This document shows positions 41,697 through 60,716 of a stretch of 64,000 nt of DNA, piece after piece. The DNA is from Hyunsoonleella aquatilis (GTDB taxonomy: Bacteria; Bacteroidota; Bacteroidia; Flavobacteriales; Flavobacteriaceae), in assembly GCF_014270105.1 (NCBI RefSeq), contig NZ_JACNMF010000005.1, positions 186,001 to 250,000 on the forward strand. Direction: 5' to 3'. The notes under the pieces are model-generated. The model was not told where the DNA came from and ran no database searches. It saw nothing but the letters and a program-made list of their open reading frames with translations. Numbering within the stretch: the first letter of the stretch is position 1; each line of letters begins with the position of its first letter. The position numbers were made by a program, and so were the translations under genes.

Positions 41697-41781
41697 GGAG
41701 AAATGGCAGAGTGGTCGAATGCGGCAGTCTTGAAAACTGTTGAGGGTCACACCTCCGGGGGTTCGAATCCCTCTTTCTCCG
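41697..41781 (+). tRNA. tRNA-Ser (anticodon UGA)
   Basis: An 85-nt cloverleaf with acceptor GGAGAAA/TTTCTCC, a D arm with AGTGGTCGAAT, an anticodon loop CTTGAAA giving TGA, a long variable arm typical of class II tRNAs and a T arm with GGTTCGAATCC. No CCA is encoded. Its 3' end is the left border of the genomic island, as expected for a tyrosine-recombinase attachment site. Confidence 0.93.
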
Positions 41782-41782
41782 C

Positions 41783-41818
41783 AAAAACCCTTGTAATCAA
41801 TTGATTTACAGGGGTTTA
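41783..41818. terminator. Bidirectional terminator between tRNA-Ser and the island operon
   Basis: A nearly perfect 16-bp stem (41785-41800 against 41801-41817, one bulge and one G-U) with A's on the left and T's on the right. On the plus strand it ends the tRNA transcript; on the minus strand it can end the 18.8-kb restriction operon. It may overlap the integration site. Confidence 0.7.
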
Positions 41819-41898: not shown

Positions 41899-42573
41899 TC
41901 AAAAATCAACTTCTAACAAATATCCATTTAGTTTTAACCAATTTTTGGCTTTTTCGTAATTAGGAATCTGAATTGATAAAATATGCCAAAACCTTTGCGT
42001 GTGATTATTTTCAATTAAATGAACCAACTCGTGAGCGACTAAATACTCAACTACATACATTGGAGCCTTTATGATTCTCCAATTAAAAATAATGTTATTT
42101 TTAGGTGTACAGGAAGCCCACCTATATTTCATTTCTGACACCTTACATTCATTAAACTCAACCCCTAAATTTTTAGCATACTTTTTTGCAAGAGGTACTA
42201 ATTTTTCTTGCGCTTTGATTTTATACCAAACCGTAAACAGTCGATTTGATTCTTGTTGATGGCATTTTGAAATCATAAACCTTTGATTAAACTCTACTCC
42301 ATCAAAATCCTCTTCTTTAATTAACAACTGATAGTTTTTCCCCAAATACAATAACGTCTCTCCGGAAACGAACTCTTTTGGAGAATAATTAAGTGGATAC
42401 TTCTGAATATGATTCATTTTTTCTTTAATCCATTGTCTCTTTTCATATACCATCTCTTTGATTCTCTCACTTGATAAGCTTTTAGGCGCTCTTACAACTA
42501 TAGACCTATCTCTCTCAACGGTAATGTTCAATGTTTTTCTATCACTATATTTTACAATGTATTCCAACTGCAT
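41899..42573 (-). CDS. YgjP/DUF45-type M48-like zinc metallopeptidase
   Basis: 224 residues. The zinc motif HELVH (near 180-184) is preceded by a conserved WRIIKAP segment, and NNHTQRFW supplies the third ligand region, as in the YgjP-like/WSS1-SprT superfamily. No signal peptide. It shares one base with the hsdR end (TAATG), so it is the last gene of the restriction operon. YgjP-like genes are often found beside type I restriction genes. Related SprT/Wss1 proteases digest DNA-protein crosslinks, so it might release stalled proteins from DNA, but this is inference. Confidence 0.85.
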   Translation of the reverse strand: MQLEYIVKYSDRKTLNITVERDRSIVVRAPKSLSSERIKEMVYEKRQWIKEKMNHIQKYPLNYSPKEFVSGETLLYLGKNYQLLIKEEDFDGVEFNQRFMISKCHQQESNRLFTVWYKIKAQEKLVPLAKKYAKNLGVEFNECKVSEMKYRWASCTPKNNIIFNWRIIKAPMYVVEYLVAHELVHLIENNHTQRFWHILSIQIPNYEKAKNWLKLNGYLLEVDF

Positions 42574-45500
42574 TAATCAATAATTTTATAATGATTAGTT
42601 TTTGCAACTTCCATAACTCTTGACACTATTGCTTTTCTGTTCGCAATTATCTTGGGCAGCTTACTAAATTGAGGTGACAATAGTAATTTTTGTAACTCTG
42701 CTTTTAATTTTAATTGTGCTGGTGGACTTTCCCAAAAACCAGTTAATTCTAACTCTGTCTTGACCAAATTATAGCTGTGTTGAGTGAGATTAACATTTTG
42801 AGCTATTTCATCTTCAGTTAAATCACGATTATCGAATATTTCAGCTTTAAATATCCTGAAGAATGGCATTTGCTTTTTCCTATCTAACCCATAAGTTTCT
42901 TCTTTTTCACGGTTCTTAATCTTTTCCCTCAATTTCTCCAATTCTTCATATATCAATTTCCAATTTCCCTGAAAGTTTTTAAGAATCTCTTCTAACGCTT
43001 GTGAAAAGGATGCAAATAACTCTGGATCCTCATCTATGTTTATATCTATATAATGCCGAATAGCATGTTCAACTTCGGCTGCTTTTGTTTTCTCCCTTTT
43101 TTTGTTAGTTACATTTTTTTGAAAATCGTCTGCAATTATTGAAATGGGTGCTACTTTTTCTTCAATCCCTTTAGACTTTAAAAACTCATCAGCAATACCT
43201 CTCAATTTTTTTGGAATACCTTTCATGCTAAAACGATCATCTCTGAAATGCCTTTTTGCCAATACATTTATTTCAGTAAATGAACGCCAATCATGGAGAT
43301 AATCAAGAGCCTCCTTTCTTGGTAAAACTGTATTAAACGCCGTTGTTAATTGCTTATATAGGTTGATATAGTCGAATCGTATGTCTTCGTCATAAAAAAC
43401 ATCATAAAACGCGTCAATATCTTCTAAATCATCCAAACCATTGTCCTTTAAAAACTTCCAAATCTCATTATGCAGTTTCCTAAGTTCATTCAATTCTTCT
43501 TCATCATTTGATAAACAATTAATTATATCTTGAGCTTCTTTATCAGAATAGGTGTCTAAAGCTCTTTTGATATGATGACCAACACCAACATAGTCTACCA
43601 CAAAACCTTTATCCTTACCTTCTGGACCAATACGATTAACTCTAGCTATAGTTTGTAATAAATTATGCGCTACAATAATTCTATCAATATACATAACTTG
43701 TTCAATTGGTGCGTCAAAACCAGTCAACAGCATGTTATTCACTATTATAATACCCACATTTCCATCAATAGAATTATCTTCTTCATCAATATTCTCAAAA
43801 GGCAGTTTAAACCTTTTTATACTTTTCTTATGGTATGCTTTGTTAGTAAATACTTTTATATGTGGTTCATCATTATGACTACCGGAAATAACAACTGCAG
43901 TTTCCAATTTCTCTAATAAGGTTAAATCCACTTTCAAGGGATTTTCCTGCTTTAATTCTGTAATTCTTACTTTTAATGCTTCATCGATTGCTGCTTTATA
44001 TCTAACCGCTGATTCTCTTGAGTTTGCTACAATTTGCGCTTTAAACTTATTTGAGAAAATATGCTCAACATAATGGCCTATCATACTTTTTGCCTTTGAG
44101 CGTATGGTTTCTATGGCTTCTAAATATGCATCTCTACTACCAAAACCAAGTATTTTCATTCTCTCGGTTAAATTGTACTCACTAAATACATCTTCGAATT
44201 TTTTGTCCATACCATCTGCATCTTCTACCTCCGCATTATTTGTAAATCCTTGATAGACTATCTCTAAAGTAACACCATCATCAATTGCTTGACGCATTGT
44301 ATATTTATCAATGTAATCCTTATATTTCTTTTCAGTTTTGTCTGTAGGTGTACCAGTAAAACCGATAGATGTTGCATTAGGTAATGCCTTATCTAAATTT
44401 GCAGCCAAAATTGAATATTGTGACCTATGTGCTTCATCAGTCATTATCAAAACATTAGGACTTTGGTTTAATTCTGGAAATAATTCCAAACCAGTCAAAT
44501 CTCCATTTTCCTGAAATTTGTGAATCATAGCCATTACCAAATCTGAATTATCATTTGATAATAATTCCTTTAAGCTTTGTCCATCAGGATTTGTTTTTTG
44601 ATTTATGAAATTGGCAACCTTTATTGTAAATCCAACATTTTGACCAGTTTCTGCCAATTGTTCTTCCAACTGGGTTCTATCAGTAACAAAAACAATTTTC
44701 CATGACATTAATTTTGGCTTTAATTTCATTTCACGAACCATAAACATCATAGTTAATGACTTTCCTGAACCTTGAGTATGCCAAATTATCCCACCTCGTT
44801 CAATTGGATTTTTACCTTCTAAAAGTCTTTTAGTTGCTAATTTAACAGCTCTAAATTGCTGATAACGCCCTACTATTTTAATTTTCTTCCCCTTATCATT
44901 TGTGCTGAATATTGTAAACACTCTAATTATATCCAACAAATTTCTTCTATCCAGCATGCCTGCCACTAAACGCTGTTGGTCATTAGGTGATGATTTACCA
45001 TGTACCAAATCATTCAGTTTTCTTGGATACGGGTCTGTCCATCTGTAAAAATATTTGTCTGTGTGTGTTGTAATTGTGCCAAATTTTGCTTCAGTACGAC
45101 ACGTTGTTATAATAAATTGATTGTAGAAAAACAATTCCTTGTTACCCTCTGCGGTATTGCCACGTTGTTCACTGTACCTCAACAATTGATCTATAGCCTC
45201 ATGTATTGGTTCTTTAACTTTAGGTGATTTTGCCTCTATAACAACTACAGGCAACCCATTAAGAAATAATACAACATCTGGAATTATGTGATGTTCAGTT
45301 CCTGTTACTTTTACTTTAAACTGTGAAATAGCAGTAAAGATGTTATTCTCAACATTTTCAAAATCAATGTAGCGCACCGTTGGACTCACTTCGCCTGTTT
45401 CTTCATTTCTTGAAACTGTAGTGTTTTCCAATAATAGACTTAATACTCTTTGATTGTTTTCAAGTAAGCTATTACCATCAAAAGATGTTATTTTACGGGT

Positions 45501-45770
45501 GACTTCATCAACTTGACCATCTGTTAAAAATGGGTTAATGGTCTTTAATGATTCCCTTAATTTAGGCTGCAACACTACTTCGGAAAAGTTAGTGCGAAAG
45601 CTTTCTTCAGGTTGTTGTTGCATCTGCAATTCCAATACCTGATTTTTATCCTTATTCCATCCTAAACCTACAAGCTGCTCCATCAAAGGTTTTTCAACTT
45701 TGTTGTATTCATCAAGTTTTAAGGATTGTCCTAAATTACCTCTATGCTGGTTATCGTTAGTTAGTATCAT
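42573..45770 (-). CDS. hsdR: Type I restriction endonuclease subunit R
   Basis: 1065 residues. The N-terminal HSDR_N nuclease domain has the PD-(D/E)XK set D165 in IPDVVLF and E179/K181 in VVIEAKSP. The SF2 helicase follows, with Walker A QGSGKS (near 331-336), the DEAH-type TDEAHRSQ (near 444) and QTIARVNRIG. The C-terminal part (about 750-1065) is helical and contacts the methyltransferase. It translocates DNA and cuts at a distance. Start overlaps the stop of the giant helicase gene by 4 nt, so they are translated together. All motifs for activity are present. Confidence 0.95.
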   Translation of the reverse strand: MILTNDNQHRGNLGQSLKLDEYNKVEKPLMEQLVGLGWNKDKNQVLELQMQQQPEESFRTNFSEVVLQPKLRESLKTINPFLTDGQVDEVTRKITSFDGNSLLENNQRVLSLLLENTTVSRNEETGEVSPTVRYIDFENVENNIFTAISQFKVKVTGTEHHIIPDVVLFLNGLPVVVIEAKSPKVKEPIHEAIDQLLRYSEQRGNTAEGNKELFFYNQFIITTCRTEAKFGTITTHTDKYFYRWTDPYPRKLNDLVHGKSSPNDQQRLVAGMLDRRNLLDIIRVFTIFSTNDKGKKIKIVGRYQQFRAVKLATKRLLEGKNPIERGGIIWHTQGSGKSLTMMFMVREMKLKPKLMSWKIVFVTDRTQLEEQLAETGQNVGFTIKVANFINQKTNPDGQSLKELLSNDNSDLVMAMIHKFQENGDLTGLELFPELNQSPNVLIMTDEAHRSQYSILAANLDKALPNATSIGFTGTPTDKTEKKYKDYIDKYTMRQAIDDGVTLEIVYQGFTNNAEVEDADGMDKKFEDVFSEYNLTERMKILGFGSRDAYLEAIETIRSKAKSMIGHYVEHIFSNKFKAQIVANSRESAVRYKAAIDEALKVRITELKQENPLKVDLTLLEKLETAVVISGSHNDEPHIKVFTNKAYHKKSIKRFKLPFENIDEEDNSIDGNVGIIIVNNMLLTGFDAPIEQVMYIDRIIVAHNLLQTIARVNRIGPEGKDKGFVVDYVGVGHHIKRALDTYSDKEAQDIINCLSNDEEELNELRKLHNEIWKFLKDNGLDDLEDIDAFYDVFYDEDIRFDYINLYKQLTTAFNTVLPRKEALDYLHDWRSFTEINVLAKRHFRDDRFSMKGIPKKLRGIADEFLKSKGIEEKVAPISIIADDFQKNVTNKKREKTKAAEVEHAIRHYIDINIDEDPELFASFSQALEEILKNFQGNWKLIYEELEKLREKIKNREKEETYGLDRKKQMPFFRIFKAEIFDNRDLTEDEIAQNVNLTQHSYNLVKTELELTGFWESPPAQLKLKAELQKLLLSPQFSKLPKIIANRKAIVSRVMEVAKTNHYKIID

Positions 45771-48700
45771 AGTTTTCTCAATTGTATGTCAATAGCATTA
45801 TCATTTGACTTAATAAAATACTTCATTTCAATTTGACCAAAAACATTTACATTGTCATGACCAGTTATATAACAATTATTCTCTATAAAATCTGGTTGTT
45901 TAAATATAGCTTCTTCAAACTCTTGGTAATTTTTAATAGCATTCTCACCAAAATTTCTAACGTATGATTCACGTAATTGATTGATGAAAAGATTATTAGA
46001 AATTACCTCAAAAGGATGTAAAATCACTAAATAATCTTTTGCTCTACTAACAGCTACATTGTAGATATACTCTTTAGACATTAAACTTTTATAATGCCCT
46101 GTATATCTTATATTGTTGGGATTAGCAATGAAGAAAATTATATCACATTCATCACCTTGAAAACCGTGAACAGTATCTGAATAAATTTTTATTTTATCCG
46201 AAATACCAAATGAAGTGATTAACTTATTTAATATTACTGCTTGAGCTTTATAAGGTGCTATTAGGCCTATTGACCAGGATTCAGAATCCGATAGTAAAGT
46301 GTCAAAATATTTTACAATTTCCGCTACTAAAATGGCACTGTATGTATGATAAGAACTATAAAATAGTTTGTCTATTCTGAAAATGGAATTATCTACATCC
46401 AATGGTATATCTATAAATGTAACATTCTTATTTATTAACTTTTTTAAATTTTCTGGCAATTCCTTTGCTGCATGATTAACATCTTCTCTATGATGATTTA
46501 ACAAGTTATTATATGATAGATCGCTAAATAATTGACCAATTGATTTTACGCTTCTATATTGTGTTGTTAAGTTTTGAATAACATCTTTTTCCCTTCGGTC
46601 TCTTTCTTGTTCATGAGGATTAAAGCTATTAATCCCCATCATAGTATAAATATTCTCATCTTGAATATCAATTTCTTCAAGTTCCTTGTCGGTTACATTA
46701 ACTACAGGCGGAATTTGTTTTGGGTCTCCAGCAATTATAAATTTTGCCTCTGGATTAAACTTATGGATTGCCATTATTGCAAAAACTATATAAGGAAGAT
46801 TAGTCATAGAGGCCTCATCAAAAATTATATAGTCCCAATACTCTTCCAATTTAAATAGTTTGGTTGAAGAATTAGCTTCTTGATTAAAAACATCATAATA
46901 GGGTATTCGATGTATTGTTGAGGCTATAAGATGTGTATTGTCTATTATATCTTGATCTAATGATTCTTTATATAGGTTTTCGTCATATTCTTCAAGTTCT
47001 ACGTCTGTAGATCTACCAACTCTAACCATTGACACTGGCATTCTAAATACATTTTCATCCCCAATTTCAGCCTGCTCATTTTCATACTTATGTTGATTAT
47101 CTATTAATTTTTTACAAACAACATCTGCTGCTTTATTGGTGGGTGTTAATAATAGAAATTTAGAATCATGTTTCTCTTGAACTATTCTTTCTACCTTTTT
47201 ACATATTGTTGTTGTTTTACCAGTACCTGGTGGACCGTAGATAAATTCTAATTTTGGTAACTTTTCTTTAATATTATCCCATGTGTCTATATTGGTCTCA
47301 TTAAAAAAAGCATTCTTTAAAAGTTCCAATAAGTGCAATACTGGTGAAAAACTTATTTTCACTTGTAGTACTTCCTTGAAACCATCAATTATATTTTGTT
47401 GAATTGGTGTCCTACAAAAAATTAAAAGGTCTTGACCTCTTTTAGAAACTCCTTCAACATCAATATTAACCCTCCTTTTATTTTTTTGAACTAACGTTAT
47501 ACTAAAATCCTCAAAATCCTCAATATTGATAGGTATAAGAGAGTTAGCACCACATAAGAGAAAATATTTATTTGAAATCTTGTCTTTAAATTTGTAACGT
47601 TTAATTTCTTGAAAAACGATAGATTTTTGCTGAGTTGTATCTTGTTTGTCTTCGAATGTAAGTAATAGGTTTAAATACGATTTGAACCAACTGTATGAAT
47701 ATTTGTTATCAGATTTAATACTCTCCAACAACTTCTCTCTTTCGTGTTTTAAGTCTTCTTGTTTAAAAACTGATTGCAATGCTTTTAAATGACTGCTCTC
47801 AATACCGTCTTTATCTGCAGCGTTATATGCCTCATAAATTTTTGATAACATGCTGTTTTTTCTCACGATAATATCTTCAATAGCATCAGATAATTCTGGT
47901 TTATCATCCTGCAACGAAATACTTAATTCCTCTAATGATGTGCTTTTTTTATAGTATATAACTACTTGATTAGATTCTCCGACAGAAATGTTACATATAC
48001 CATCTTCTATAACACCTAAATCAAACACCTCTGTATCATTATCAAAAAGAATTTGAAACTCTATTGAATCCTGTTTTATAAGCCGTATGTTATTTTCAGA
48101 CCTCCAATTACGATAAAAGGGTTCATTATGCTCATTAGCATTTATATCAGATAAAAACGTTTTTTCATATTTCAATTCTTTGAAATCACGAACAAATTCA
48201 TCCACACCCGTTATAGGTAACTTAAGAATATTAACGCTAGTGTATAATCTATTTAAATTATTTTGTTCATTGTCTATTAACTTACTATGAACATCTTCGT
48301 TAATGTAATAGAAATCATTTTCTTCAGACATTACAATTTTAAAACTATCAATTGTATGATAAACTAACCGCGGAATCCCATCTTGCTCTTTAGAAATAAG
48401 ATGATTTATGATTTTTTCAATTAATTCGATTCGTCTGGTATCTTCATTATTAATTATTATCGGATTATTATTCAGTCTTGTAAACTTACCTGAAAGCCCT
48501 TTTAAGGTGTTTAAAAGTAAGCTATTGTTAACCCTATCAAAACTAAATTCTTCAGATAAGCTACCTAATTCACCTAACAAATAACTTCTTAAACCTTGGA
48601 TTACATTCTCACCTTTCCAAAACCCAAGATCACTTAAAAATTGTATTTTGTTAATATCTTCACCAGCCCAGTGACTAAATTCTTTAGGTGGTATTTCATT

Positions 48701-51700
48701 TTCAGTACGTATTCCTTTTAATATATTTTCTCTTGGATTAATACTTAAATAATCTATCCAATCCAATTTTCTTTTATGAACTCTAATTTGAGATGATAAA
48801 TTTATCCAGCCATTGAAAAGGTAATTTAATTTACTTTCTAACTCCTTTTCATTCACTAATATTTCTGGATTAAACCCCTTAACAAAAAGAAACTTTGAGG
48901 CTATGATGTCATCTTCATTGTTGCCATAATTAAACGCCTCTAAATCATTTAATTTTAGCAACTCTTGAATCCCCTCATAATCTTGACTTATCATAAACAT
49001 TGAATCAATAAACTCTTCATTTTTTTCTGAATAAATAATTAATTGATTCTCAATTTTCATCCATCTTTCATTATTGAACTTAATTGAAAACTCTTTAATT
49101 TTTTCACTATTGAATTGTTGTGACAATAAAACAAATGCTAATTGGTGGCTATTAGTTATTTGCTTATTATTTAAGTTTTCTAAAAATTTTGAAACCAATT
49201 GATTAGTCACACCAGCACTGGAAATCTTGAAAAGCTTATCTGCTGTTTGATGATTTAATATTTCACGGGATATTGCATCATTATGGATTTGTTGAATTAT
49301 TTCAATACTATCAGCATTTTCAAGATTTAATATTTGAGATTGTGATAGTACAATGTCTTTATCACCTCTTTTAACCTCAATAGAATCTTGCGCACTGTCT
49401 ATATCTGCAATAATTATTTCTGACTCATCTTTTAGAATTTTAATTTTTTCTTGTATTGTTTCTAATTCATCATCGGCAATAACCCCTTCAACTACTTCTT
49501 TCAGTAGTTTTAAGTATAAATTATTGCTTCTTTCATTATTCCAATAGGCATCTAAAGGCGTAAAAGTAAGGGTTTCTAAAAGTGCTTTTTTATCTTGTAA
49601 ACGCTCTGCCAGAACTAACTCTATTAAATCCAATTCTTGATCCTCATTATCTTCTTTGAAAATCTCAATTAAATGTTCTACTAGATTACTTTCTGCTAAC
49701 TCAATATTAGCTTTGAAAGAAGCAAACTCGTTAGGTATGAGTTCATAATCATCTGAATAGTATGTTCCAACATATTTGATTATTGCTGTTTTTGAAGTAA
49801 ATATTTGTTGTTTAGAGTTTGTTGATTCGATAGTATATTCCCCATTATTTTGGACAATACAATTATCTTCAAAGAAATCTAATTCACATTTAGTTGAAAA
49901 CAACAGCAAATAGTGCAATTCTGTTTTATTAATTTTCTCTACTTCTAAATCTTTGTCAATATTAGCGAGGTTATAGGAAAAAGGCACTTTATCCATAGAC
50001 GACAACATACAAGCATCTGGAATATACACATTGTAATACTTCAGAATTACCTCCTGTATATTTTGAAAATTATCTTGAGATAGATGCGCTAACTTTTCAT
50101 TAAAATAAATTTCATCTACATGGATAACCTCTCCTTTATATATTATTAATTTAGAAGTATTGAGTAAATAATTGGCTTTTTCTTGCCAATTACTTTTATC
50201 ATACAAAATGATTATTTCATCAAATACCTCTTTAGACTCCTTTTGATTAATTGAAACATGTTCTAAAATGTCCTTCCAGAAAGGATAAATGACACCTTCA
50301 TAAATTTCTTGATCAGTATCAATTAAATAGTTTTTATAGGCTGTATTGTTTTCTTCTGGATGAATACAAAACCTCGAAAGCCAATTGTGTTGTGAAGCTG
50401 CTAATAAATTTTTAAAATGAGCAGGAACATTGTTATTGTTTTTAAATAATTTCAATTCCTTAATTCTGTCCCCAGGTGTTTCATTCAATGTTCTAAACGC
50501 CTCATATATATTATGTTTCTCTTTGACAGATAAACTATTAAGGTTTTCGTTCTTAACAACTGTACTAAATAATTTTGTTACATTTAAATAACCTCCTGCT
50601 TGAGATTTATTATTGAATAAACTAAAATATTTAGGGTTAAAATCAAAATCCTCAAAATTATGTTCCGTTACATTGAACTTTAGCTTAATTAATATGTCTT
50701 TTATATTATTAAGTTTATTATAAGTAATAATATAACCTTCAGATTCTTTTTCTTGTACTTCATTTGGACTTAAAGATTCATAATTATTAAACTTGAACAG
50801 TTTCGTTTCAAAGAAGTTTGCTTTAAAAATAGCATTGGAAACTATTTCTTGAGGAACATTTTTAAGTTCTTTTAATAAGGTATCTAAATTATTTTCTTGT
50901 TTTAGCCAGCCATTTAAATAATTAAACACCTGATTGTTTGAAATGAACAATTTACCTAAATCAAAATTTTTGATATTTAACTTTGTTATAGCGGATAATT
51001 CAAATTGAATACCTGAATCACTCCAATAAAACCATTTTACGTTTTCTAATCCCCAAGTAAGAGGCTCTACATCTATTTTTGTTTTCTTAATAAATACTTC
51101 ATCAGGATTTGATACAACGGAAAACTCATTGGAATTTAAAGATTCCCTAACTGGAATATATCTTTTGAGTAACTCATTTATAGGATTTATATAAGGTTTT
51201 TCAATCCACAATCTATCTTGATTTGCACTCTTTCCGGAAGTTAGTAATGCAGCATAAAAATGTAAAAATAATCGTCTTTCAGAATCTATATCGGAATTTG
51301 AAAGCCGTTTTAATTCTTCATCAATTTTATTTACAATGGTCTCGAGTAATCTTTCGTTTATACCATCTTGATTTGTACTTCCCTTATGCAAAAAGGTTCT
51401 TGAGCTACCCTTGTAAAACGCATTGGAATGCAACACGTAATTGAAGTTATGTACCTCTTCTGATAATGGAAAATACAAGTATAAATTAGGTGCTCCCTTA
51501 AAATAATCTTCAATTAGATTGTGCTTTCTAAAACCAAATAGCACTTCTACATTGGCTTCTTCCTTTAATTTATTTTGTTGCTCTGCTGAAAGTTCATCAT
51601 AAGTTTGCACACCAAAACGTATATAAGCATACGTATCTTTTTCAGAGTTTTTATCTATGGTAAATTTCACATACTCTAATTCTGGATATGTGATAGGTTC

Positions 51701-52684: not shown

Positions 52685-52693
52685 TTTTAAAGC

Positions 52694-55600
52694 TTAAATC
52701 AGTTTAGATATTTTATTGATTACTTCTTCAATTGCAATTGAATCTATACCTCCTTTTTCACTCTCTGTTGTTGTAAATAGGTTATCTGTTAGTTTATAGC
52801 CATTATCATTATAAAATTGAAGTTTCTTTTCCCAATCGGCTCTGTAACTTGGTAAAGACATCATTCCCAAATGCTCAAGAATAATTATATCTCCTGCTGC
52901 ATCAATAAAGGTGAAATCAGGTATTCTTTTTTGCCCATTTTTACCAATAAATTCACGTTCATATTCAAAATCTATTTCTTTCTCCACTAACATATTTGCT
53001 ATTATAACCTCTGATTTGCTTCTGACTAATAACCCTTCTTTTTTGGTTTTATGAATCAACCCTTCTGCATAAGGTATACTATGTTTTTCTTCCCTTACTG
53101 AATAAGAGAATATATGTGTATTACGTTTTGCCGTTTCAGAATATTGAGGTTTGGATAGGTTTATAATCCAGTGTGGTGTATCTCCTTCAACCAATAATAT
53201 AAGCTTCTTTTTTGCTCTGGTTAAAGCCGTATATATTAATTCCCTTGAGATAATCCTTCCGGTTTTTGGGATAACCAAGAACACAAAATCAAAATCACTT
53301 CCTTGGCTTTTGTGAACTGTAATTGCATATGCCAATTCCAAATTACTTGAGTCATTATCTGCTTGTCCTTGTGATTTATAACCAAACGTTACCTTATTAT
53401 CAACACCTGCAAAAACCACATTAGCAAACCCCTTTCTGGTGTCTTTTACCAACCCCAATTGACCGTTAGACAATTGATAGGGTTCACCGCCAGGAAATCC
53501 ATCTTTCCATTCATTAACTGTTTGGATTACCTTATCATAAAGTCCTAATTGATACTCGCCAATTGATACCGTTCCTTTTAAACCGTTTCTAAATTGTTGC
53601 TGAAAGGTTCGATTTAAATTATAGGATCCCCAATAAGGTGCTTTAACCGGACTTAATAACTGAAATGCTTCTATTTTATCTGTGTTTACATTATATCCTT
53701 CAACACCCAAAACCTTATTAAGGGTTACATAATCCTTTTCACCTTTTAAGTCTAAATTTTCAATCAAAAGCCCATTAAGTTTGGTAATCAATGATTGTTC
53801 GTCTTCCCAATTTGTCACTTGCAAATCATTTAACAACTCATTACTACCTAACTTTTGGAAAATAGAATCGGCATCTTTTGATGGTTTTAATCCCGAGTAC
53901 CAAGAGGCCAATGTTAAGGTGTCTGAATTTTCTCCATCAACATTTCTAACTACTTCTTTTAATCTTGCCAATGCTTCATAAGCTTCAAAATCTTCGTCTT
54001 CTTCTTCCAGATTATCTAAAAAAGTACAAAAGTCTGCGAATGGTCTTCCTGCACCAATTGGTGGCAATTGATATGGGTCACCCACTAAAATAAGCCGTTT
54101 TATATGGCCTAAATCTAACGCTTGCATTAAGGCGTACAAATCATCTTCTGTAAGCATAGAGCACTCATCCACAATTACATTTTGTTCACCCTTATATTTT
54201 TCTTTACCTGTAAATCGGGGTTTCATTCGATTCCAATCAAAGCGATTTTGCTTGTTTAGGAACTGCGCTATGGTAAAAGCTTCACCACCTGCCATTTTAC
54301 CCAATTTAACTCTGGCTTTTCCTGTTGGGGCTAACAATAAAATTCCTTCAGTAGTTAAGGTTTTACATCCAAATAATGCTCCCAGCACCGTAGTTTTTCC
54401 AGTACCAGCAGGACCGTGTAGCACAGAAATTTTCCTATCTGTCAACCTTTGTAAAGCTGTAACTTGGTCTGCTAATGCCGCTATATGTTTTGGATTGTTA
54501 CCATTAAATGTAATACCATTATTAGCAATAACCCTTTTAATTAGTGCTTCCCAATTTTCATCTATTCCTTCTAACGCTCTTTTGGCTCTTGCTATCAATA
54601 CCTTTCTAAAGTAGGATTCAATTTCATTATACTTTTCGAGCTGTAAGGCTTGAATTTCTCCACGGTTTATAAAATTGAGTTGTTCTTTTATAAACTCTAT
54701 ATTGGTTATAATATAGTTTACCGGTAAGACTGTAGCTCTTTGAAGATTGAGTGTGTTTATGGTTTCTGTCAATTCGTTTACAGATACCAACGTATCGCCA
54801 TTTTCTGCAGCTCTTTTTAAGACTTGTGTGATTATGGCTCTTATTCGTCTTTGGTCTAATGGGGAATCTACCAATTGTGGTTTATTAGGAACATTTTCGC
54901 CCTGAATGGCTTTATCTTCAAATAATCCATTATCTATAGTTTCTACTGCTATTGGATAATTTTCTAAATCACCTTCATCTAATTCTGCAATTCTGTATGG
55001 GTTTTCTAAAATTTCTGCATCTGTTGTTTTATAACCTAACTTATTTCTGGTTTTGCTATCAAACCAATTTTTAATCTGTTTATCAGACAGTTCAAATCGT
55101 GATAATAGGATTAACAGGTTTTTTCTTTCGGTACTTTCATTTAACCAAATATCCCTAAAATGTGGCAGGTCTGATGCGTAAGGCTTATTCTGTAAATTAA
55201 TAATTCCATTAATAGCATCTTCCCATGCATCCCAAGGATTGTCTTTAACAGCTAACTGTTTGCTGTTCCGTAAGTCTTCTTCCAATAAATGACCATATTG
55301 AAAACCTAAAGCCAACAGGGCATTGCCGAAGGATGGGAACGGTCCCATACTTTCCTTAACCTTTCCTATTTGACGGTCTATCCATTGTATGTGATGTTCC
55401 CAAAGATCTTTTACTATACCATGACTTTTGATTCTTTCAACAATACTTCTCAACTTTCCTAACACCACCAAAGCCGAACTATCATTTACATGTTCACTAC
55501 CATAAGTAAACTCGTCTATAACCTCTTGTCTGCTCGCTGTTTCTTGTAAGGTGAGTTTTATCTCGTTAAGAAGGTCTTGTTTGTTTTTTTTGCCTTCTTT

Positions 55601-56350
55601 TGTTTTAAGAACATAATCTTCTGGTAGTTCCAAATACTCATAATATGGCAAAAGAATTCCTTCACTTGAAGTCTCATTAGGACGAATACCATGTTCAATT
55701 AATCTATCCCATAACGGATAGGTATAATCTGCATTGGTTTCGTATTTAAGTATTTTCGATTTTGTTTTTACAATGCCAATACCAACAATTAACCTTCTGC
55801 TGTCTTCATCTACAGGATTTGCTCCTTTAGCATAATACATGACCAAAGAATAATTTTCTTTTATAGGTTCAAAAAAACGTTTTAGAAGAGCCTCTTGTGT
55901 TTGATAGGTGTAAACCCATGATGATGGAAAAGGTGGGTTTTGGTCTCTGGGAATATCAGGATATTGTTCTTTTATTGTATTTTGATTACCTCTTAACATC
56001 CACCAGAAAGGCACTGCAAAACTGCTGAATGGTGGCACTGATATAGTTGTTGGTTTTAAAGCATTGTGTGGTACGTCTTTACCATTGGGTTTATAGTATG
56101 GATGCTGAAATGTACGGTTGTATTTAAGTGCACTCATAAAACTTGCACCTTCTGCTTTACAAGGTGGTAACTGATTTTGTTGCAAGGTACTCCAATGCTT
56201 ATCTGCTATTTTATCTTCTTCTTTATCGTTTTTATCTGCATAAATACGTGGTAAGTTTAAGCAATAGGCGTTTTGGGATGGATGCTTGCAAATAGCCCCA
56301 TTCCATTTATTGTCGTGCCAGCTTACCCTGATGGAAAGATGTTTTATCAT
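52694..56350 (-). CDS. RecD-like helicase with C-terminal PD-(D/E)XK nuclease
   Basis: 1218 residues. The N-terminal about 600 residues begin with a striking LSIRVSWHDNKWNGAICKHP block (Cys and His residues, possibly metal-binding), with no known family recognised. A RecD-like SF1 helicase follows: Walker A GPAGTGKTT (near 645), DECSML, GDPYQLPPIGAG, HKSQGSDFD and TALTRAKKKL. The C-terminal domain (about 1105-1180) has RSKSEV, PDFTF and ILEHLG, the E-D-E pattern of a PD-(D/E)XK nuclease. It can therefore unwind and cut DNA. Its start overlaps the hsdS stop by 4 nt. Confidence 0.85.
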   Translation of the reverse strand: MIKHLSIRVSWHDNKWNGAICKHPSQNAYCLNLPRIYADKNDKEEDKIADKHWSTLQQNQLPPCKAEGASFMSALKYNRTFQHPYYKPNGKDVPHNALKPTTISVPPFSSFAVPFWWMLRGNQNTIKEQYPDIPRDQNPPFPSSWVYTYQTQEALLKRFFEPIKENYSLVMYYAKGANPVDEDSRRLIVGIGIVKTKSKILKYETNADYTYPLWDRLIEHGIRPNETSSEGILLPYYEYLELPEDYVLKTKEGKKNKQDLLNEIKLTLQETASRQEVIDEFTYGSEHVNDSSALVVLGKLRSIVERIKSHGIVKDLWEHHIQWIDRQIGKVKESMGPFPSFGNALLALGFQYGHLLEEDLRNSKQLAVKDNPWDAWEDAINGIINLQNKPYASDLPHFRDIWLNESTERKNLLILLSRFELSDKQIKNWFDSKTRNKLGYKTTDAEILENPYRIAELDEGDLENYPIAVETIDNGLFEDKAIQGENVPNKPQLVDSPLDQRRIRAIITQVLKRAAENGDTLVSVNELTETINTLNLQRATVLPVNYIITNIEFIKEQLNFINRGEIQALQLEKYNEIESYFRKVLIARAKRALEGIDENWEALIKRVIANNGITFNGNNPKHIAALADQVTALQRLTDRKISVLHGPAGTGKTTVLGALFGCKTLTTEGILLLAPTGKARVKLGKMAGGEAFTIAQFLNKQNRFDWNRMKPRFTGKEKYKGEQNVIVDECSMLTEDDLYALMQALDLGHIKRLILVGDPYQLPPIGAGRPFADFCTFLDNLEEEDEDFEAYEALARLKEVVRNVDGENSDTLTLASWYSGLKPSKDADSIFQKLGSNELLNDLQVTNWEDEQSLITKLNGLLIENLDLKGEKDYVTLNKVLGVEGYNVNTDKIEAFQLLSPVKAPYWGSYNLNRTFQQQFRNGLKGTVSIGEYQLGLYDKVIQTVNEWKDGFPGGEPYQLSNGQLGLVKDTRKGFANVVFAGVDNKVTFGYKSQGQADNDSSNLELAYAITVHKSQGSDFDFVFLVIPKTGRIISRELIYTALTRAKKKLILLVEGDTPHWIINLSKPQYSETAKRNTHIFSYSVREEKHSIPYAEGLIHKTKKEGLLVRSKSEVIIANMLVEKEIDFEYEREFIGKNGQKRIPDFTFIDAAGDIIILEHLGMMSLPSYRADWEKKLQFYNDNGYKLTDNLFTTTESEKGGIDSIAIEEVINKISKLI

Positions 56351-57594
56351 ACCGTTTGTTTTATTAAATGCGTTACTCTTTTTTTACCTGATAAGAGATC
56401 TTGCATTAAGCCTCTTTTGATAGAATGTAGTTTAGAGAGTTGTGTGTCATAAAATCTAAATGATTTTTGAATTTTATCTAGCTTTGATGCTATAAGATTT
56501 TGTTCATCTATTTGAGGTAGTAAAATCCAAATTTGCCTTAAATCAGAAATGTTAATATCAATAAAGGTCGTTCCCTTTATCAACAGTTCCATCTGCCTTT
56601 CATTTCTGTAAGACTTCAAAAACCAAACTAAATAATTTGGGTTTAAGTCACTATTAGGACAAATTCTAGCCACACCTCGCGTTGTATTGCAATTTATATA
56701 TTCAGAGCTAACAAGATTAAAATCCCCTACTGAAGCCCTCACATTACAAACTATATCATTTTCTGATAAAATCGTTCTTTTGTATTTATCTGAAATTGAC
56801 TGTTTGGTACGAAGTAAATTTTTTAATGGGTTAATACCATTTTCCCCTAAATCAATTGTTCGTAAAACCGGTACACCATCCTCAATATGTTCAAAAGTTT
56901 GAACAATACCATAAGTAATAGAAGTACCTTTCATTTTACAGTTATCAAGAATTTCAATGTTCCATTCCACAGGAATACGCCCTAATTGACTATCTTTAAA
57001 TTGGTGTGTTGCTTCTTCACGAATATTACCATCTTTATCTATCCCTTTCGTTAAGAGGTCTTGCATTAAACCTGTTTTAATGCGTTGGTATTTAGCAATG
57101 AGTTTTTCGGTTTGTGTAATAGCTTCATCTACTTTGGATAGAATGCTGGCGATTTGAGTTTGTTCCTTTGGGTTTTCTGGAATTAAAAATTCAAATTCTT
57201 TAATTGCCTTCTGCTGAATATTTGGAAGGCCAGAACCAACACGTAAGTCCATTATTAAATGCTGTCTTCCTTTTAAAGCTTGGTATAGAAAACCATTATC
57301 AAGTTCTTTATCTAAATCCAATAAAGAGTAGCAGTGACCACCACTCCAGAACTTGGTTGTTATAAGGTTTATGTAACCACAAGAGTTACCTCCTTCACTA
57401 ATCGTAATTGTTTTTTCATTTGTATTCCATAGATCCGAATAACCAGACGGTTCAATTCCTCCGTTTATACAAGGGTACATTCCATAATCTGAAAGGTCAA
57501 TCTTATTGAATTGAACACCTTTTTTAATTTCACAAGCAGCACCAAGTTTTTTTAATTTCCATCCATCAGGAATATTTACTTTAACCTCTTTCAT
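56347..57594 (-). CDS. hsdS: Type I restriction specificity subunit S
   Basis: 415 residues. Two target-recognition domains (about 10-145 and 205-365), each followed by a conserved helical spacer: KVDEAITQTEKLIAKYQRIK with GLMQDLLTKG after TRD1, and a shorter copy with RGLMQDLLSGKK after TRD2. The two spacers correspond to direct DNA repeats. The protein reads the bipartite target and holds the two HsdM copies. The recognition sequence cannot be predicted from this. The start is one nt away from the hsdM stop; the end overlaps the helicase gene. Confidence 0.93.
   Translation of the reverse strand: MKEVKVNIPDGWKLKKLGAACEIKKGVQFNKIDLSDYGMYPCINGGIEPSGYSDLWNTNEKTITISEGGNSCGYINLITTKFWSGGHCYSLLDLDKELDNGFLYQALKGRQHLIMDLRVGSGLPNIQQKAIKEFEFLIPENPKEQTQIASILSKVDEAITQTEKLIAKYQRIKTGLMQDLLTKGIDKDGNIREEATHQFKDSQLGRIPVEWNIEILDNCKMKGTSITYGIVQTFEHIEDGVPVLRTIDLGENGINPLKNLLRTKQSISDKYKRTILSENDIVCNVRASVGDFNLVSSEYINCNTTRGVARICPNSDLNPNYLVWFLKSYRNERQMELLIKGTTFIDINISDLRQIWILLPQIDEQNLIASKLDKIQKSFRFYDTQLSKLHSIKRGLMQDLLSGKKRVTHLIKQTV
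56391..56421. repeat. Direct repeat in hsdS, copy near the 3' end
   Basis: Matches 57051-57081 at 26 of 31 positions. It encodes the conserved spacer motif GLMQDLL in both halves of HsdS. Such repeats allow recombination between target-recognition domains. Confidence 0.6.
57051..57081. repeat. Direct repeat in hsdS, central copy
   Basis: Partner of 56391-56421, same orientation, about 660 bp away, one complete target-recognition domain apart. Confidence 0.6.
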
Positions 57595-57595
57595 A

Positions 57596-60487
57596 TTAAT
57601 CCAAATAATTTAAAGCGGTTAAAAAATTGCTTAACTCCTGCATGGTTTCTTCTCGTTTGTTTTCAATGCTTTGAGCCGATACAGCGTATTTATCCCAAAG
57701 GTTTTCAAACGCACTTACCAGAATGCGCTTTTCGGTATTTAAGTAGCGTTGTAATTGGGTGTTGATTAAATCGAAATGCTTTTTAAGGATTAATTTTTGA
57801 GATTCCTCTTCGGAAATCACGCCTCCAATGCTTTTTAACAAGGCATCTAAACTATTTAGTTTTTCTTCTAAAATCTCAAGATTTTTTAAAGCCGTATTAT
57901 AGGGTTTGGTAATACTTTTAAAACTAGCTTTAGCCTTTAATACTTGTTGCAACTTCTCTGGATTGTTTTTATCCTTTTTTAGTTCTTTTTCTAATGCTGT
58001 GGTAGCTTTTTTTATGGCATCGTAAGATGTTGTATTTGCTAAATCCTTTTTAAAGAAACTAATAACCTTTTCAATATTGCTATCTAATGCTGTTAAGTCT
58101 TTTTTAGTAGTTTTAACTAACTGGTTCGCTGTTTCTTTTTCATCATCTACACCGTAGCGTTTAATTACCAGTTTAAGGGCTAACTCTTCTTGCTTTTGTT
58201 TTAAGGTTGCTTTGGTTTCCTTTATTTGCTTTTCAAGGTTTTTAATTTTAGCATCAATAGTCTCGTAAGGTTTGGCTTGTTCTGGTTTGAGCTTTTCTTC
58301 CTTTAGGTAGGTGATTTCTGTTTTTAACTCGCGTTTTGCTATAGCAGTGGTTATTTTTTCATCTTCATCAGCTTCATACTCCAACAACTCTATAGCTTCT
58401 TCAACCGCTTCCTCTAAAGCACTTTCTTTTTCTGATTGTTTTATTTCTAAATCTTCAATTTCCTGTTCCTCTTTCTGAAAATAAGCTTCAATTAAATATT
58501 CGTCTGGAATTAAACCTGCATCCCAACCGTTTTGCATAATGGTTTTTAAATCGTATTTAATGTTGTCCCACCAATTTACAAATACGCCAGCCACTTGAAA
58601 CTTGTCCAACACACCTACAGGCACAAATTGTTCTTTGATAGTGGTTAATAATTCTTCCCTAACCTTTGGTAGCTTGGTGTTGTTTAGTGTTACGTAATTA
58701 GTGATACCTTCGTTAACAGCATCTTCCTCACTGATAGAAGTTTCTATTTTTGGTGCAAGCGTAGAAAAATCTTCTTTTGCCAATTGCCACCAATCTGCTA
58801 ATTGTAAACCTAAATCTAATAAGGTTTTCTCAACATTTTCATCAGTATCTATTAATGATTTTATTTCTGACTTTTCATCGATATCAAACACTTTGTAGTT
58901 TCCATTTTTATCATTGAAGAGTTTATCACTAATGAAGTTGAATTTTTGACATTGTCCGTTTTGCACTGTTTCTATTTCCCCTACTGGAATACCACCCACT
59001 AAATGTGCTTTTACATCTTCAGGTTCAGGTTCAGCAGTATTATCTACATAGCGTCTAATGTTTAGTGTAAAGTCATTATTTTCGATTTCACTATACTCTA
59101 CTAAACGACTGTATTTAGGTTCGTTGATTTTATTAGTAAAGACAAAGTCAATCTTTTCTACATCCTCTGGTCGTAACGAATTTTGCTTTTTTCCTTCCGC
59201 ATATTCTTTATCGGCATTAATAAAGAATACTTTGTTTTTAAGTTCGTCAGGTTTGTTTTTATTAAAAACCATTACACAAGCTGGAATACCAGTACCATAA
59301 AACAATTGTGGTGGTAAACCTATTACACCTTCCAACACATCTGCTTCTGGCTTTAACATATTCTCTCTAATTTCTTTCTCTTTACCACCTCTGAATAATA
59401 CACCATGAGGCATAACAACTACTACCTTTCCATCTTTTTTACAGCTTGCCAACATGTGTTGCACAAACATTAAATCGGCTTTTTTTCCTGTTTCTGGTGC
59501 AAAACCATAAGGGAAACGGTTAGGGTAATCCATATTTGCTCTCGAGTAATTTTGAGAGAATGGTGGATTTGCTATTACTCTGTCGAACTGGATTAACTGG
59601 CCACCTCTAACATTTAAAGGTGTTTCTAAAGTGTCTTCAAATTCAATAGTATATTTTGATATGTTGTGTAGAATGATATTCATTTTACATATAGCCACAA
59701 CAGAAGGTTCTGACTCCTGACCAAATAACTCTAAATTATTTGCATCTTGACCTTGCTCACCTACATAGGAATGTGCTTGGATTAACATACCACCAGAACC
59801 CACTGTAGGATCGTATATAGAATGCCCTTCTTCAGGTTTTAATAACTGAACTAATAATCTTACCACTTGATTAGGCGTATAGAATTGCCCTCCTTTTTTA
59901 CCGCTTTCGTCTGCAAAGTATTTTAGCAAATACTCATAAGCAGCACCTAATAAATCTGGAAACTCAAAGTTTTCATTGACCAATGCAGGAAACTCATTGA
60001 AATGGTCAATCATATCTTTTAGGTCCTTGTTTTTTACAATTTGTTTACCATCTACTTCACGGTTGAAATTGATACGCCCTTTAAAGACCCCTGTTAAGGT
60101 TTCTGGGTTAGCTTCCTCTATAGCATCTAATGCTTTGTTAAGCATTTGCCCAATATTGTCTGATAAGTGTTTTATTGGTGATCTTTCAGTCCCATTCTCA
60201 TCAATAAAACCTTCGTGCCATCTTGCTCTTTTTGGAACAAAGAAATACTCCCCATAGGTTTCATTGTCTTCTAGCAGTTCATCAACAATTTCCTTATCCA
60301 AATGTGCAAAATCTTTTTTGCGAAGTTGTTCTCTTTTTTGGTCGAATACATCTGACATTCGTTTGAGAAATAGCATTCCAAAAATGTATTCTTTGTATTC
60401 TGAAGGGTCTATTTTACCTCTTAAAATATCAGCTGCTTTCATTAGGAATTTTTCCAGCTGACTTAACTTAATTATGTTTTTTTTCAT
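57596..60487 (-). CDS. hsdM: Type I restriction methyltransferase subunit M, extended form
   Basis: 963 residues, almost twice the usual length. The N-terminal HsdM_N part (about 10-165) is followed by the N6-adenine methyltransferase with DPTVGSGG (226-233, SAM binding) and NPPF (307-310, catalytic). A C-terminal extension (from about 560) contains a long Lys/Glu-rich coiled coil (about 670-900; EQEIEDLEIKQSEKESALE, KNLEKQIKETKATLKQ). With HsdS it methylates adenines in the target and protects host DNA. The extension could bind the extra helicases, which is inference. Preceded 31 nt upstream by an XRE gene. Confidence 0.93.
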   Translation of the reverse strand: MKKNIIKLSQLEKFLMKAADILRGKIDPSEYKEYIFGMLFLKRMSDVFDQKREQLRKKDFAHLDKEIVDELLEDNETYGEYFFVPKRARWHEGFIDENGTERSPIKHLSDNIGQMLNKALDAIEEANPETLTGVFKGRINFNREVDGKQIVKNKDLKDMIDHFNEFPALVNENFEFPDLLGAAYEYLLKYFADESGKKGGQFYTPNQVVRLLVQLLKPEEGHSIYDPTVGSGGMLIQAHSYVGEQGQDANNLELFGQESEPSVVAICKMNIILHNISKYTIEFEDTLETPLNVRGGQLIQFDRVIANPPFSQNYSRANMDYPNRFPYGFAPETGKKADLMFVQHMLASCKKDGKVVVVMPHGVLFRGGKEKEIRENMLKPEADVLEGVIGLPPQLFYGTGIPACVMVFNKNKPDELKNKVFFINADKEYAEGKKQNSLRPEDVEKIDFVFTNKINEPKYSRLVEYSEIENNDFTLNIRRYVDNTAEPEPEDVKAHLVGGIPVGEIETVQNGQCQKFNFISDKLFNDKNGNYKVFDIDEKSEIKSLIDTDENVEKTLLDLGLQLADWWQLAKEDFSTLAPKIETSISEEDAVNEGITNYVTLNNTKLPKVREELLTTIKEQFVPVGVLDKFQVAGVFVNWWDNIKYDLKTIMQNGWDAGLIPDEYLIEAYFQKEEQEIEDLEIKQSEKESALEEAVEEAIELLEYEADEDEKITTAIAKRELKTEITYLKEEKLKPEQAKPYETIDAKIKNLEKQIKETKATLKQKQEELALKLVIKRYGVDDEKETANQLVKTTKKDLTALDSNIEKVISFFKKDLANTTSYDAIKKATTALEKELKKDKNNPEKLQQVLKAKASFKSITKPYNTALKNLEILEEKLNSLDALLKSIGGVISEEESQKLILKKHFDLINTQLQRYLNTEKRILVSAFENLWDKYAVSAQSIENKREETMQELSNFLTALNYLD

Positions 60488-60518
60488 TTAGTTGATTGGT
60501 TCTATTCTGTAGCAATAA

Positions 60519-60716
60519 TTAGCTATTAGGCACTTCTTGTAAAAGATCTTTAGCATCCACTTTTAATATCTTGGCTATTTTGTACAATATTTCCAAACTG
60601 GGTTGGGCTCTATTTTGAACATAGCCATTTACAGTGTTAAAACTTTTGCCAAGCCTTTCAGCTAACCAGACCTGCTTAATGCCTTTTTCTTCTAAAACTT
60701 CTTTAATTCTATTCAT
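60519..60716 (-). CDS. XRE-family HTH regulator, first gene of the restriction operon
   Basis: 65 residues, almost only a helix-turn-helix: QVWLAERLGKSFNTVNGYVQNRAQPSLEILYKIAKILKVD. It resembles the controller (C) proteins that delay restriction until methylation is complete. It is 31 nt ahead of hsdM on the same strand, so it probably controls its own operon. The region upstream (60721-60797) has short A/T palindromes that could be its operators. Confidence 0.88.
   Translation of the reverse strand: MNRIKEVLEEKGIKQVWLAERLGKSFNTVNGYVQNRAQPSLEILYKIAKILKVDAKDLLQEVPNS

Follow-up and report, generated by a model that had tools for sequence, protein, structure and literature searches.

A type I restriction-modification cassette of Hyunsoonleella aquatilis with a probable portable RecD-like/GHKL-Upf1 module between hsdS and hsdR

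The window analyzed here, a 64,000-nucleotide stretch of the Hyunsoonleella aquatilis genome (contig NZ_JACNMF010000005.1, positions 186,001 to 250,000), contains a type I restriction-modification (RM) operon with two giant helicase genes between hsdS and hsdR. We consider this operon to be, with reasonable probability, an ordinary type I RM cassette on a tRNA-Ser island, in which the hsdS-hsdR slot holds a portable two-gene DNA-processing or defense module: a PDC-S68-family RecD-like protein and a TmtA-like GHKL-Upf1 protein. As judged by sequence comparison, the cassette exists without the module, and the genes of the module are found alongside BREX, DISARM-like, and other RM genes. The operon comprises seven genes in one run, all on the minus strand, listed here from the upstream end:

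60519..60716, minus strand: XRE-like helix-turn-helix protein, 65 amino acids (aa); candidate label, taken from the first-pass annotation and the look of the translated sequence
57596..60487, minus strand: hsdM, type I N6-adenine methyltransferase, 963 aa, with an NPPF motif (PF02384, E = 1e-101; HsdM_N; PADLOC MTase_I, E = 4e-254)
56347..57594, minus strand: hsdS, specificity subunit, 415 aa, with two Methylase_S stretches (PF01420)
52694..56350, minus strand: RecD-like helicase, 1218 aa, with C-terminal PD-(D/E)XK-type residues; first cargo gene (PADLOC PDC-S68; superfamily 1B [SF1B] domains)
45767..52684, minus strand: GHKL (sacsin-type) ATPase fused to an Upf1-like superfamily 1 (SF1) helicase, 2305 aa; second cargo gene (library matches; PADLOC TmtA and MkoA-like)
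42573..45770, minus strand: hsdR, type I restriction subunit, 1065 aa (TIGR00348, 464 bits against a cutoff of 285; HSDR_N, SWI2_SNF2)
41899..42573, minus strand: YgjP/SprT-like metallopeptidase, 224 aa (PF01863, E = 2e-56)

On re-examination, the strands, lengths, and junctions of these genes (+31, +1, -4, +9, -4, and -1 nucleotides [nt], in order along the run) agreed exactly with the first-pass annotation. All reading frames are open, and library searches back every gene name except XRE-like (six of seven). HsdM scored 226 bits against TIGR00497, below the cutoff of 243, and matched strongly in Pfam and PADLOC. The type I gene set of hsdM, hsdS, and hsdR is complete at the locus, with the expected domains. 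Given the tight packing and overlaps, the operon is likely to be transcribed as one unit, and the XRE-like protein, first in the run, is a possible controller. Promoter-like and terminator-like counts at the locus were no higher than in shuffled sequences under a sigma-70 model, which may not suit this phylum. Counting the PF02384 methylase family alone, the 3.93-Mb genome contains a single match, which makes it rare for any given gene in this organism to neighbor a type I-like methylase.

The base cassette was found elsewhere without the two giant genes. Within the family, a close HsdR (E ≤ 1e-150) was present in H. aquatilis alone (1/299 genomes). HsdR also matched 20 plasmid records, of which five were compared, one from Runella and four from cyanobacteria. 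Plasmid pRUNSL02 of Runella slithyformis carries the cassette hsdM-hsdS-hsdR-SprT/YgjP (66%, 52%, 75%, and 67% identity to the window, respectively) with an empty slot, 8 nt separating hsdS from hsdR, and its HsdR aligns with that of the window from the first residue, over residues 1-1064 of both proteins. In the cyanobacterial plasmids, the slot holds toxin-antitoxin genes in Synechococcus (with an insertion sequence element in hsdS) and in Dolichospermum (where hsdR is unannotated and the run spans the start of the record), Fic/HigB-type genes in Synechocystis, and one gene of no known type in Oscillatoria. The next gene after hsdR is of the SprT family in all five plasmids. Because the Runella cassette exists without them, the two giant genes are best regarded as cargo in the hsdS-hsdR slot; because the SprT-family gene trails hsdR throughout and the contents of the slot vary, YgjP is regarded as a member of the cassette. 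The seven genes had earlier been described as one composite; in Runella, by contrast, YgjP and the RM genes occur together as a self-contained base cassette.

RecD-like relatives recur next to several kinds of modification-type defense operon, among them type I, BREX, DISARM-like, type III, and type IIG. Strong PDC-S68 matches were found in 4 of 299 family genomes (E ≤ 1e-100) and, at E ≤ 1e-60, in 9 of 395 phylum genomes and 4 of 336 order genomes, in draws that overlap. At the default threshold, 291 of the 299 family genomes match, since ordinary RecD-like helicases also score; of 14 control genomes, that of Methanocaldococcus jannaschii also matches at the 1e-60 threshold. Eleven loci from these surveys together with that of Flavobacterium frigoritolerans (G954) make up a set of 12 chromosomal loci, for which host assignments cover the neighboring stretches retrieved around each locus. 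Four lie in type I RM operons (the window, G174, G433, and G579), six lie near genes of BREX, DISARM-like, DrmD-GHKL, type III, or type IIG systems, and two have no such host. The six comprise G949 with BREX (BrxC, PglX, BrxHI, PglZ), G431 with DrmD plus GHKL, G656 with SNF2 plus type IIG, G274 with type III RM, and two DISARM-like loci, G954 (in the same run as the RecD-like gene) and G160. DISARM-like is used here as a loose label for DruE-, DpdE/DrmD-, and DrmMI-like genes: among the scanned proteins of these relatives the drmA/B/C core was not found, and the matches are to DrmMI and to DrmD or DpdE. RecD lies between hsdS and hsdR in both the window and G174.

The PDC-S68 search matched 10 plasmid records, and neighborhoods were compared in five. 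DrmD-type helicases lie near the RecD-like gene on a Hymenobacter plasmid, which also has a methylase and a protein with the same Upf1-like end nearby, and on a Sphingomonas plasmid, where the RecD-like gene is split. In the viral collection, at least 79 loci matched, and six of them (L106-L111, E ≤ 4e-97) were accepted as genuine relatives. Of these, L106, L108, and L109 have type I genes alongside, L107 has DrmD plus GHKL, and L110 is a fragment. Scans of viral contigs with single proteins gave one weak RecD-like locus and no GHKL-Upf1, and a separate A2 profile scan found no relative.

Several of these loci carry further genes. The type I operon of G174 (L048:4723-16996) has a GmrSD/HEC-06-like gene adjoining its distant RecD-like gene between hsdS and hsdR. 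At L046:2606-7985, near the DISARM-like operon of G160, a 1565-aa protein has a DarT domain near its C terminus and is followed by a 230-aa gene, presumably encoding a macro domain. Plasmids of Hymenobacter (L058) and Chryseobacterium (L059) encode proteins of 1673 and 1612 aa, respectively, that match the Upf1-like C terminus of the window protein alone; both are accompanied by a DNA methyltransferase and by a DEAD helicase, and the Hymenobacter RecD-like gene is ~9 kb upstream in the same run.

The GHKL-Upf1 protein was found in 1 of 299 family genomes (E ≤ 1e-80) and in 3 of 360 phylum genomes (E ≤ 1e-150), one of which has the helicase part alone; a further search, which reaches close relatives alone, contributed L004/G954, L002, and L003. 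Full-length proteins occur at six loci: the window, L004/G954, L002, L003, L070/G949 (36% identity), and L188/G329. The hosts are type I at two (the window and L002, a Pedobacter metagenome-assembled genome with hsdS, a PtuA-like gene, and hsdM, and no hsdR on its 14-kb contig), BREX at two (G949 and G329), and DISARM-like at one (G954), with no host system seen on the 12-kb contig of L003. RecD adjoins GHKL-Upf1 at three of the six: the window, G954 (same order, gap of 11 nt), and G949 (reversed order). No type I genes were found in the stretches examined around the G954 and G949 pairs. The first-pass annotation had argued that the two genes are not a random insertion, and their recurrence as neighbors inside other defense operons supports this. 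Its further suggestion of a dedicated extension of type I RM is not supported: no type I genes were seen in the stretches retrieved around 8 of the 12 chromosomal RecD-like loci and 4 of the 6 full-length GHKL-Upf1 loci. The two large genes do not always lie between hsdS and hsdR; in those stretches they occur mostly without hsdMSR, though most are near another modification-type system. At L188 (G329), defense systems are nested: the BREX genes pglZ and brxL come first, then qatA, a 283-aa gene that matched nothing in PADLOC, qatC, and qatD, and finally GHKL-Upf1.

In a tree of 21 RecD-like proteins (excluding L110, the Sphingomonas gene that is split, the five remaining plasmid records, and two phage-collection records), four of the six sister pairs span different hosts, and all four are well supported: the window (type I) with G954 (DISARM-like), G433 (type I) with G656 (IIG), G949 (BREX) with G483 (near DRT3), and G579 (type I) with G274 (type III). 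A GHKL neighbor is present in 5 of the 21 rows, with the Upf1 fusion in the window, G954, and G949 and without it in G431 and L107. Well-supported branches force at least three changes of the GHKL neighbor on this tree.

Both cargo proteins retain their predicted catalytic residues in distant rows, which we counted in favor of the module. The PDC-S68 match spans the full length of the RecD-like protein (E = 0; residues 2-1214 of 1218 aligned to 5-1218 of 1221), and a domain library search finds SF1B helicase domains in it. In its C terminus, all 14 rows of one alignment share E1114, D1145, E1159, H1160, and K1176; in a second alignment, of 7 rows, a single row has R at position 1176. The helicase residues checked are invariant across the 14 rows, save one T-to-S change in Walker A. 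The AlphaFold model built on the 7-row alignment (mean predicted local distance difference test [pLDDT] score, 67.0) orders the C-terminal stretch as helix-strand-strand-helix-strand, which suits the topology of a PD-(D/E)XK fold. No nuclease family was found among the best 25 of 30 Pfam families for the 14 aligned members or in a PDB search with the C terminus, where the best match had E = 0.4. The best 50 fold matches of the RecD model gave SF1 helicases (RecD, RecD2, Pif1, Dda, TraI, a Helitron transposase, DSH9, and Upf1), with RecD and RecD2 among the top matches. The giant protein has an N-terminal sacsin-type GHKL ATPase and a C-terminal helicase related to SMUBP-2 and Upf1. TmtA in PADLOC covers residues 1-1707 (E = 1e-173); the Upf1-like helicase lies beyond this match, at residues 1802-2222, with a PADLOC MkoA-like match at 1814-2230. 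All five full-length homologues share the GHKL motif residues E81, N85, D88, N113-G115, G142, G145, and G147, as well as every helicase residue checked.

Such a module could work as follows. It would be transcribed with its host system, and the RecD-like and GHKL-Upf1 proteins would act jointly. The GHKL part may serve as an ATP-driven clamp or assembly switch, and the two SF1 motors with the PD-(D/E)XK-type domain would unwind and degrade phage DNA, entering at ends made by HsdR or by replication or at unusual replication intermediates. The host methyltransferase might provide self-protection, or the host might offer just a shared promoter. The module would add a second layer, out of reach of anti-restriction proteins. 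A bolder version, which we hold tentatively and think doubtful, is that RecD-like plus GHKL(-Upf1) can be plugged universally into modification-based defense systems (type I, IIG, III, BREX, or DISARM-like) as a two-motor, RecBCD-like DNA-degrading effector, which uses the methyl mark of the host system, or the DNA ends made by that system, to tell phage from self. If the module interpretation is correct, it would explain the related giant helicase genes in restriction, BREX, and DISARM-like operons, which would be sockets for exchangeable effectors. It would also allow a clear-cut test of cooperation between modification systems and helicase-nucleases via methyl marks or DNA ends and give a testable function to two protein families of unknown mechanism.

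A number of observations weigh against a portable module. Its function is a prediction from sequence features. The host operon of G160 is ~11 kb away with RecD on the opposite strand, and at G274 several genes separate RecD from the type III RM genes. At G483, DRT3 is nearby and no methylase was seen; no host system was seen near the RecD-like gene at G587, on the Rhizobium, Vibrio, and Embleya plasmids, or at L111. In two of the six sister pairs, both members have the same kind of host (G431/L107, DrmD plus GHKL; L106/L109, type I, support 83/76). The GHKL neighbor is absent from 16 of the 21 tree rows, its three changes could be one gain plus two losses, and 26 of 500 label shuffles need equally few changes. 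The AlphaFold model of GHKL-Upf1 residues 1-1200 was uninformative (mean pLDDT, 38.8). The formal controls are also weak, and their p values carry no weight. A simple methylase-motif scan, which misses DrmMI, was positive in 6 of 17 case stretches and 0 of 20 controls (p = 0.005), with the controls picked from 26 weaker RecD-like loci (six dropped before their neighbors were known; two stretches short); these look, from their similar neighbor sizes, to be largely one conserved locus. The p value for a homology count of 10 of 12 loci against 0 of 20 controls is unsafe, the scan having used queries from the case loci themselves, with self matches there by construction. The case rests on recurrence in different hosts.

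Such recurrence also bears on three other explanations. The cargo could be a guard resembling PrrC, silent while HsdMSR is intact; inhibition of the RM complex by a phage anti-restriction protein would set it off to degrade both phage and host DNA. The gene prrC lies within a type I operon, whose inhibition PrrC detects (PMC3874165, PMC12707154); moreover, the position of RecD between hsdS and hsdR is repeated in G174, and RecD directly precedes hsdR at the edge of contig L108. However, relatives associated with BREX, DISARM-like, type III, or IIG genes, or with no visible host, indicate that a specific contact with HsdR is not conserved, making a guard unlikely. We judge it quite improbable that the two genes are mere passengers, that is, unrelated single-gene defense candidates that entered the same hotspot by chance and do not cooperate: the adjacent pair occurs at three loci with different hosts, GHKL and RecD are also neighbors in G431 and L107, and the GHKL neighbor changed repeatedly on the RecD tree. 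This is so despite their listing as separate families in PADLOC, the occurrence of GHKL-Upf1 without RecD at three of six loci, and the many tree rows in which RecD has no GHKL neighbor.

Finally, all seven products might act together as one integrated machine, an extended type I system, consistent with the tight packing, the overlaps, and the likely single transcript. This explanation was set back by the Runella cassette without cargo, by the absence of type I genes from the stretches examined around the pairs in G954 and G949, and by the preponderance of RecD-like and GHKL-Upf1 loci at which type I genes were not seen, and we regard it as quite unlikely. A portable module carried by an ordinary cassette remains our preferred interpretation.

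The operon is on a tRNA-Ser integrative island of ~25.3 kb, with the following integration site and one further gene just upstream of the operon:

41697..41782, plus strand: tRNA-Ser(TGA), the island integration site; its 3' end, CCTCTTTCTCCGC (41770-41782), recurs at contig 17:253043
60798..61238, minus strand: RadC-family JAB-domain gene directly upstream of the XRE-like gene (PF04002, E = 7e-28)

The second copy of this 13-bp repeat adjoins a phage-type integrase (contig 17:251637-252890) and corresponds to window position 67043, so the island extends past the window. The repeat replaced an earlier att candidate, a 14-mer at 41815. Across the operon the G+C fraction is 0.28-0.35, compared with 0.39-0.42 in the 4 kb to its left (0.345-0.43 farther left). 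The RadC-family gene, 81 nt from the XRE-like gene, is an island gene that may or may not share a transcript with the operon. In a genome of the same genus (G132, L093:704-12519), the interval from the same tRNA-Ser to pheT has other cargo, including a 988-aa protein with a PtuA-like part and a 1601-aa protein with a DpdF/GajB-like part; the interval looks like a defense hotspot.

The first-pass annotation recognized no named system at this locus, which stands for the whole set; the single proteins, by contrast, have candidate names, PDC-S68 and TmtA. The RecD-like protein matches PDC-S68 over its full length and differs in being paired with a GHKL protein, where the S presumably denotes a single-gene candidate. 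The term PDC-S68 was not found in the literature searched; PADLOC PDC candidates come from a "guilt-by-embedding" screen and are mostly unvalidated (PMC12988326). TmtA matches the GHKL and middle part of the giant protein, with GHKL motifs intact, and MkoA resembles its C-terminal helicase; the window protein thus joins TmtA-like and MkoA-like parts in one 2305-aa chain beside RecD. We take TmtA to be Tiamat and MkoA to be Mokosh. Tiamat is a stand-alone one-gene system, whereas the window gene lies inside an operon and continues into an Upf1-like helicase. Mokosh consists of MkoA with a partner gene or of the one-gene form MkoC; no second Mokosh gene was found among the operon proteins scanned with PADLOC, and the helicase part alone matches both MkoA and MkoC. 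The core of DISARM is drmA/drmB/drmC and that of BREX is brxC/pglZ. No Drm names, and hence no DISARM core gene, were among the PADLOC matches listed for the window proteins (best 25 rows in two tables), and the operon proteins gave no PADLOC match to brxC or pglZ, BREX genes being present beside G949 and (pglZ, brxL) G329. A review names Tiamat and Mokosh and gives their mechanism as unknown (PMC12926258).

GHKL ATPases have precedents in RM operons. For MORC-type GHKL ATPases encoded in such operons, a role in looping DNA between the recognition site and the cleavage site has been proposed (PMC2292703), and RM neighborhoods have been reported to contain GHKL-HEPN fusion proteins (PMC3710099). 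By analogy, such a role would fit the GHKL part of the window protein. As in the window, the MORC/paraMORC operons described there combine GHKL ATPases with helicases, nucleases, and methylases (PMC2292703, PMC3710099); their helicases are SF2 enzymes encoded by separate genes, whereas the window has a fused SF1 helicase and an adjoining RecD-like SF1 helicase. No description of the RecD-like/GHKL-Upf1 pair was found in the titles and abstract starts of the literature searched, with most subscription papers outside its coverage.

The placement of the cargo also has precedents. In EcoprrI, prrC presumably lies between hsdS and hsdR. It is, as in the window, an extra defense gene inside a type I operon, and PrrC is an anticodon nuclease that senses RM inhibition, whereas the window pair look like DNA helicases with a DNA-nuclease-type domain (PMC3874165, PMC12707154). 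Closest in plan is an island of enteropathogenic Escherichia coli, RptR-hsdM-hsdS-DarTG2-hsdR-M48, for which the authors call hsdS-hsdR a potential recombination hotspot (PMC12255303). Both loci have a small regulator (the XRE-like gene being the candidate in the window), hsdM, hsdS, embedded defense genes, hsdR, and a metallopeptidase in nearly the same arrangement. Islands of this type are marked by an RptR repressor and TAGCTA repeats in the promoter; one TAGCTA was seen in the window (60520-60525), at the end of the XRE-like gene and not in a promoter. The cargo differs as well, being a DarTG2 toxin-antitoxin pair in E. coli and a helicase-nuclease with a GHKL-helicase here. Embedding in the hsdS-hsdR slot is already published for DarTG2.

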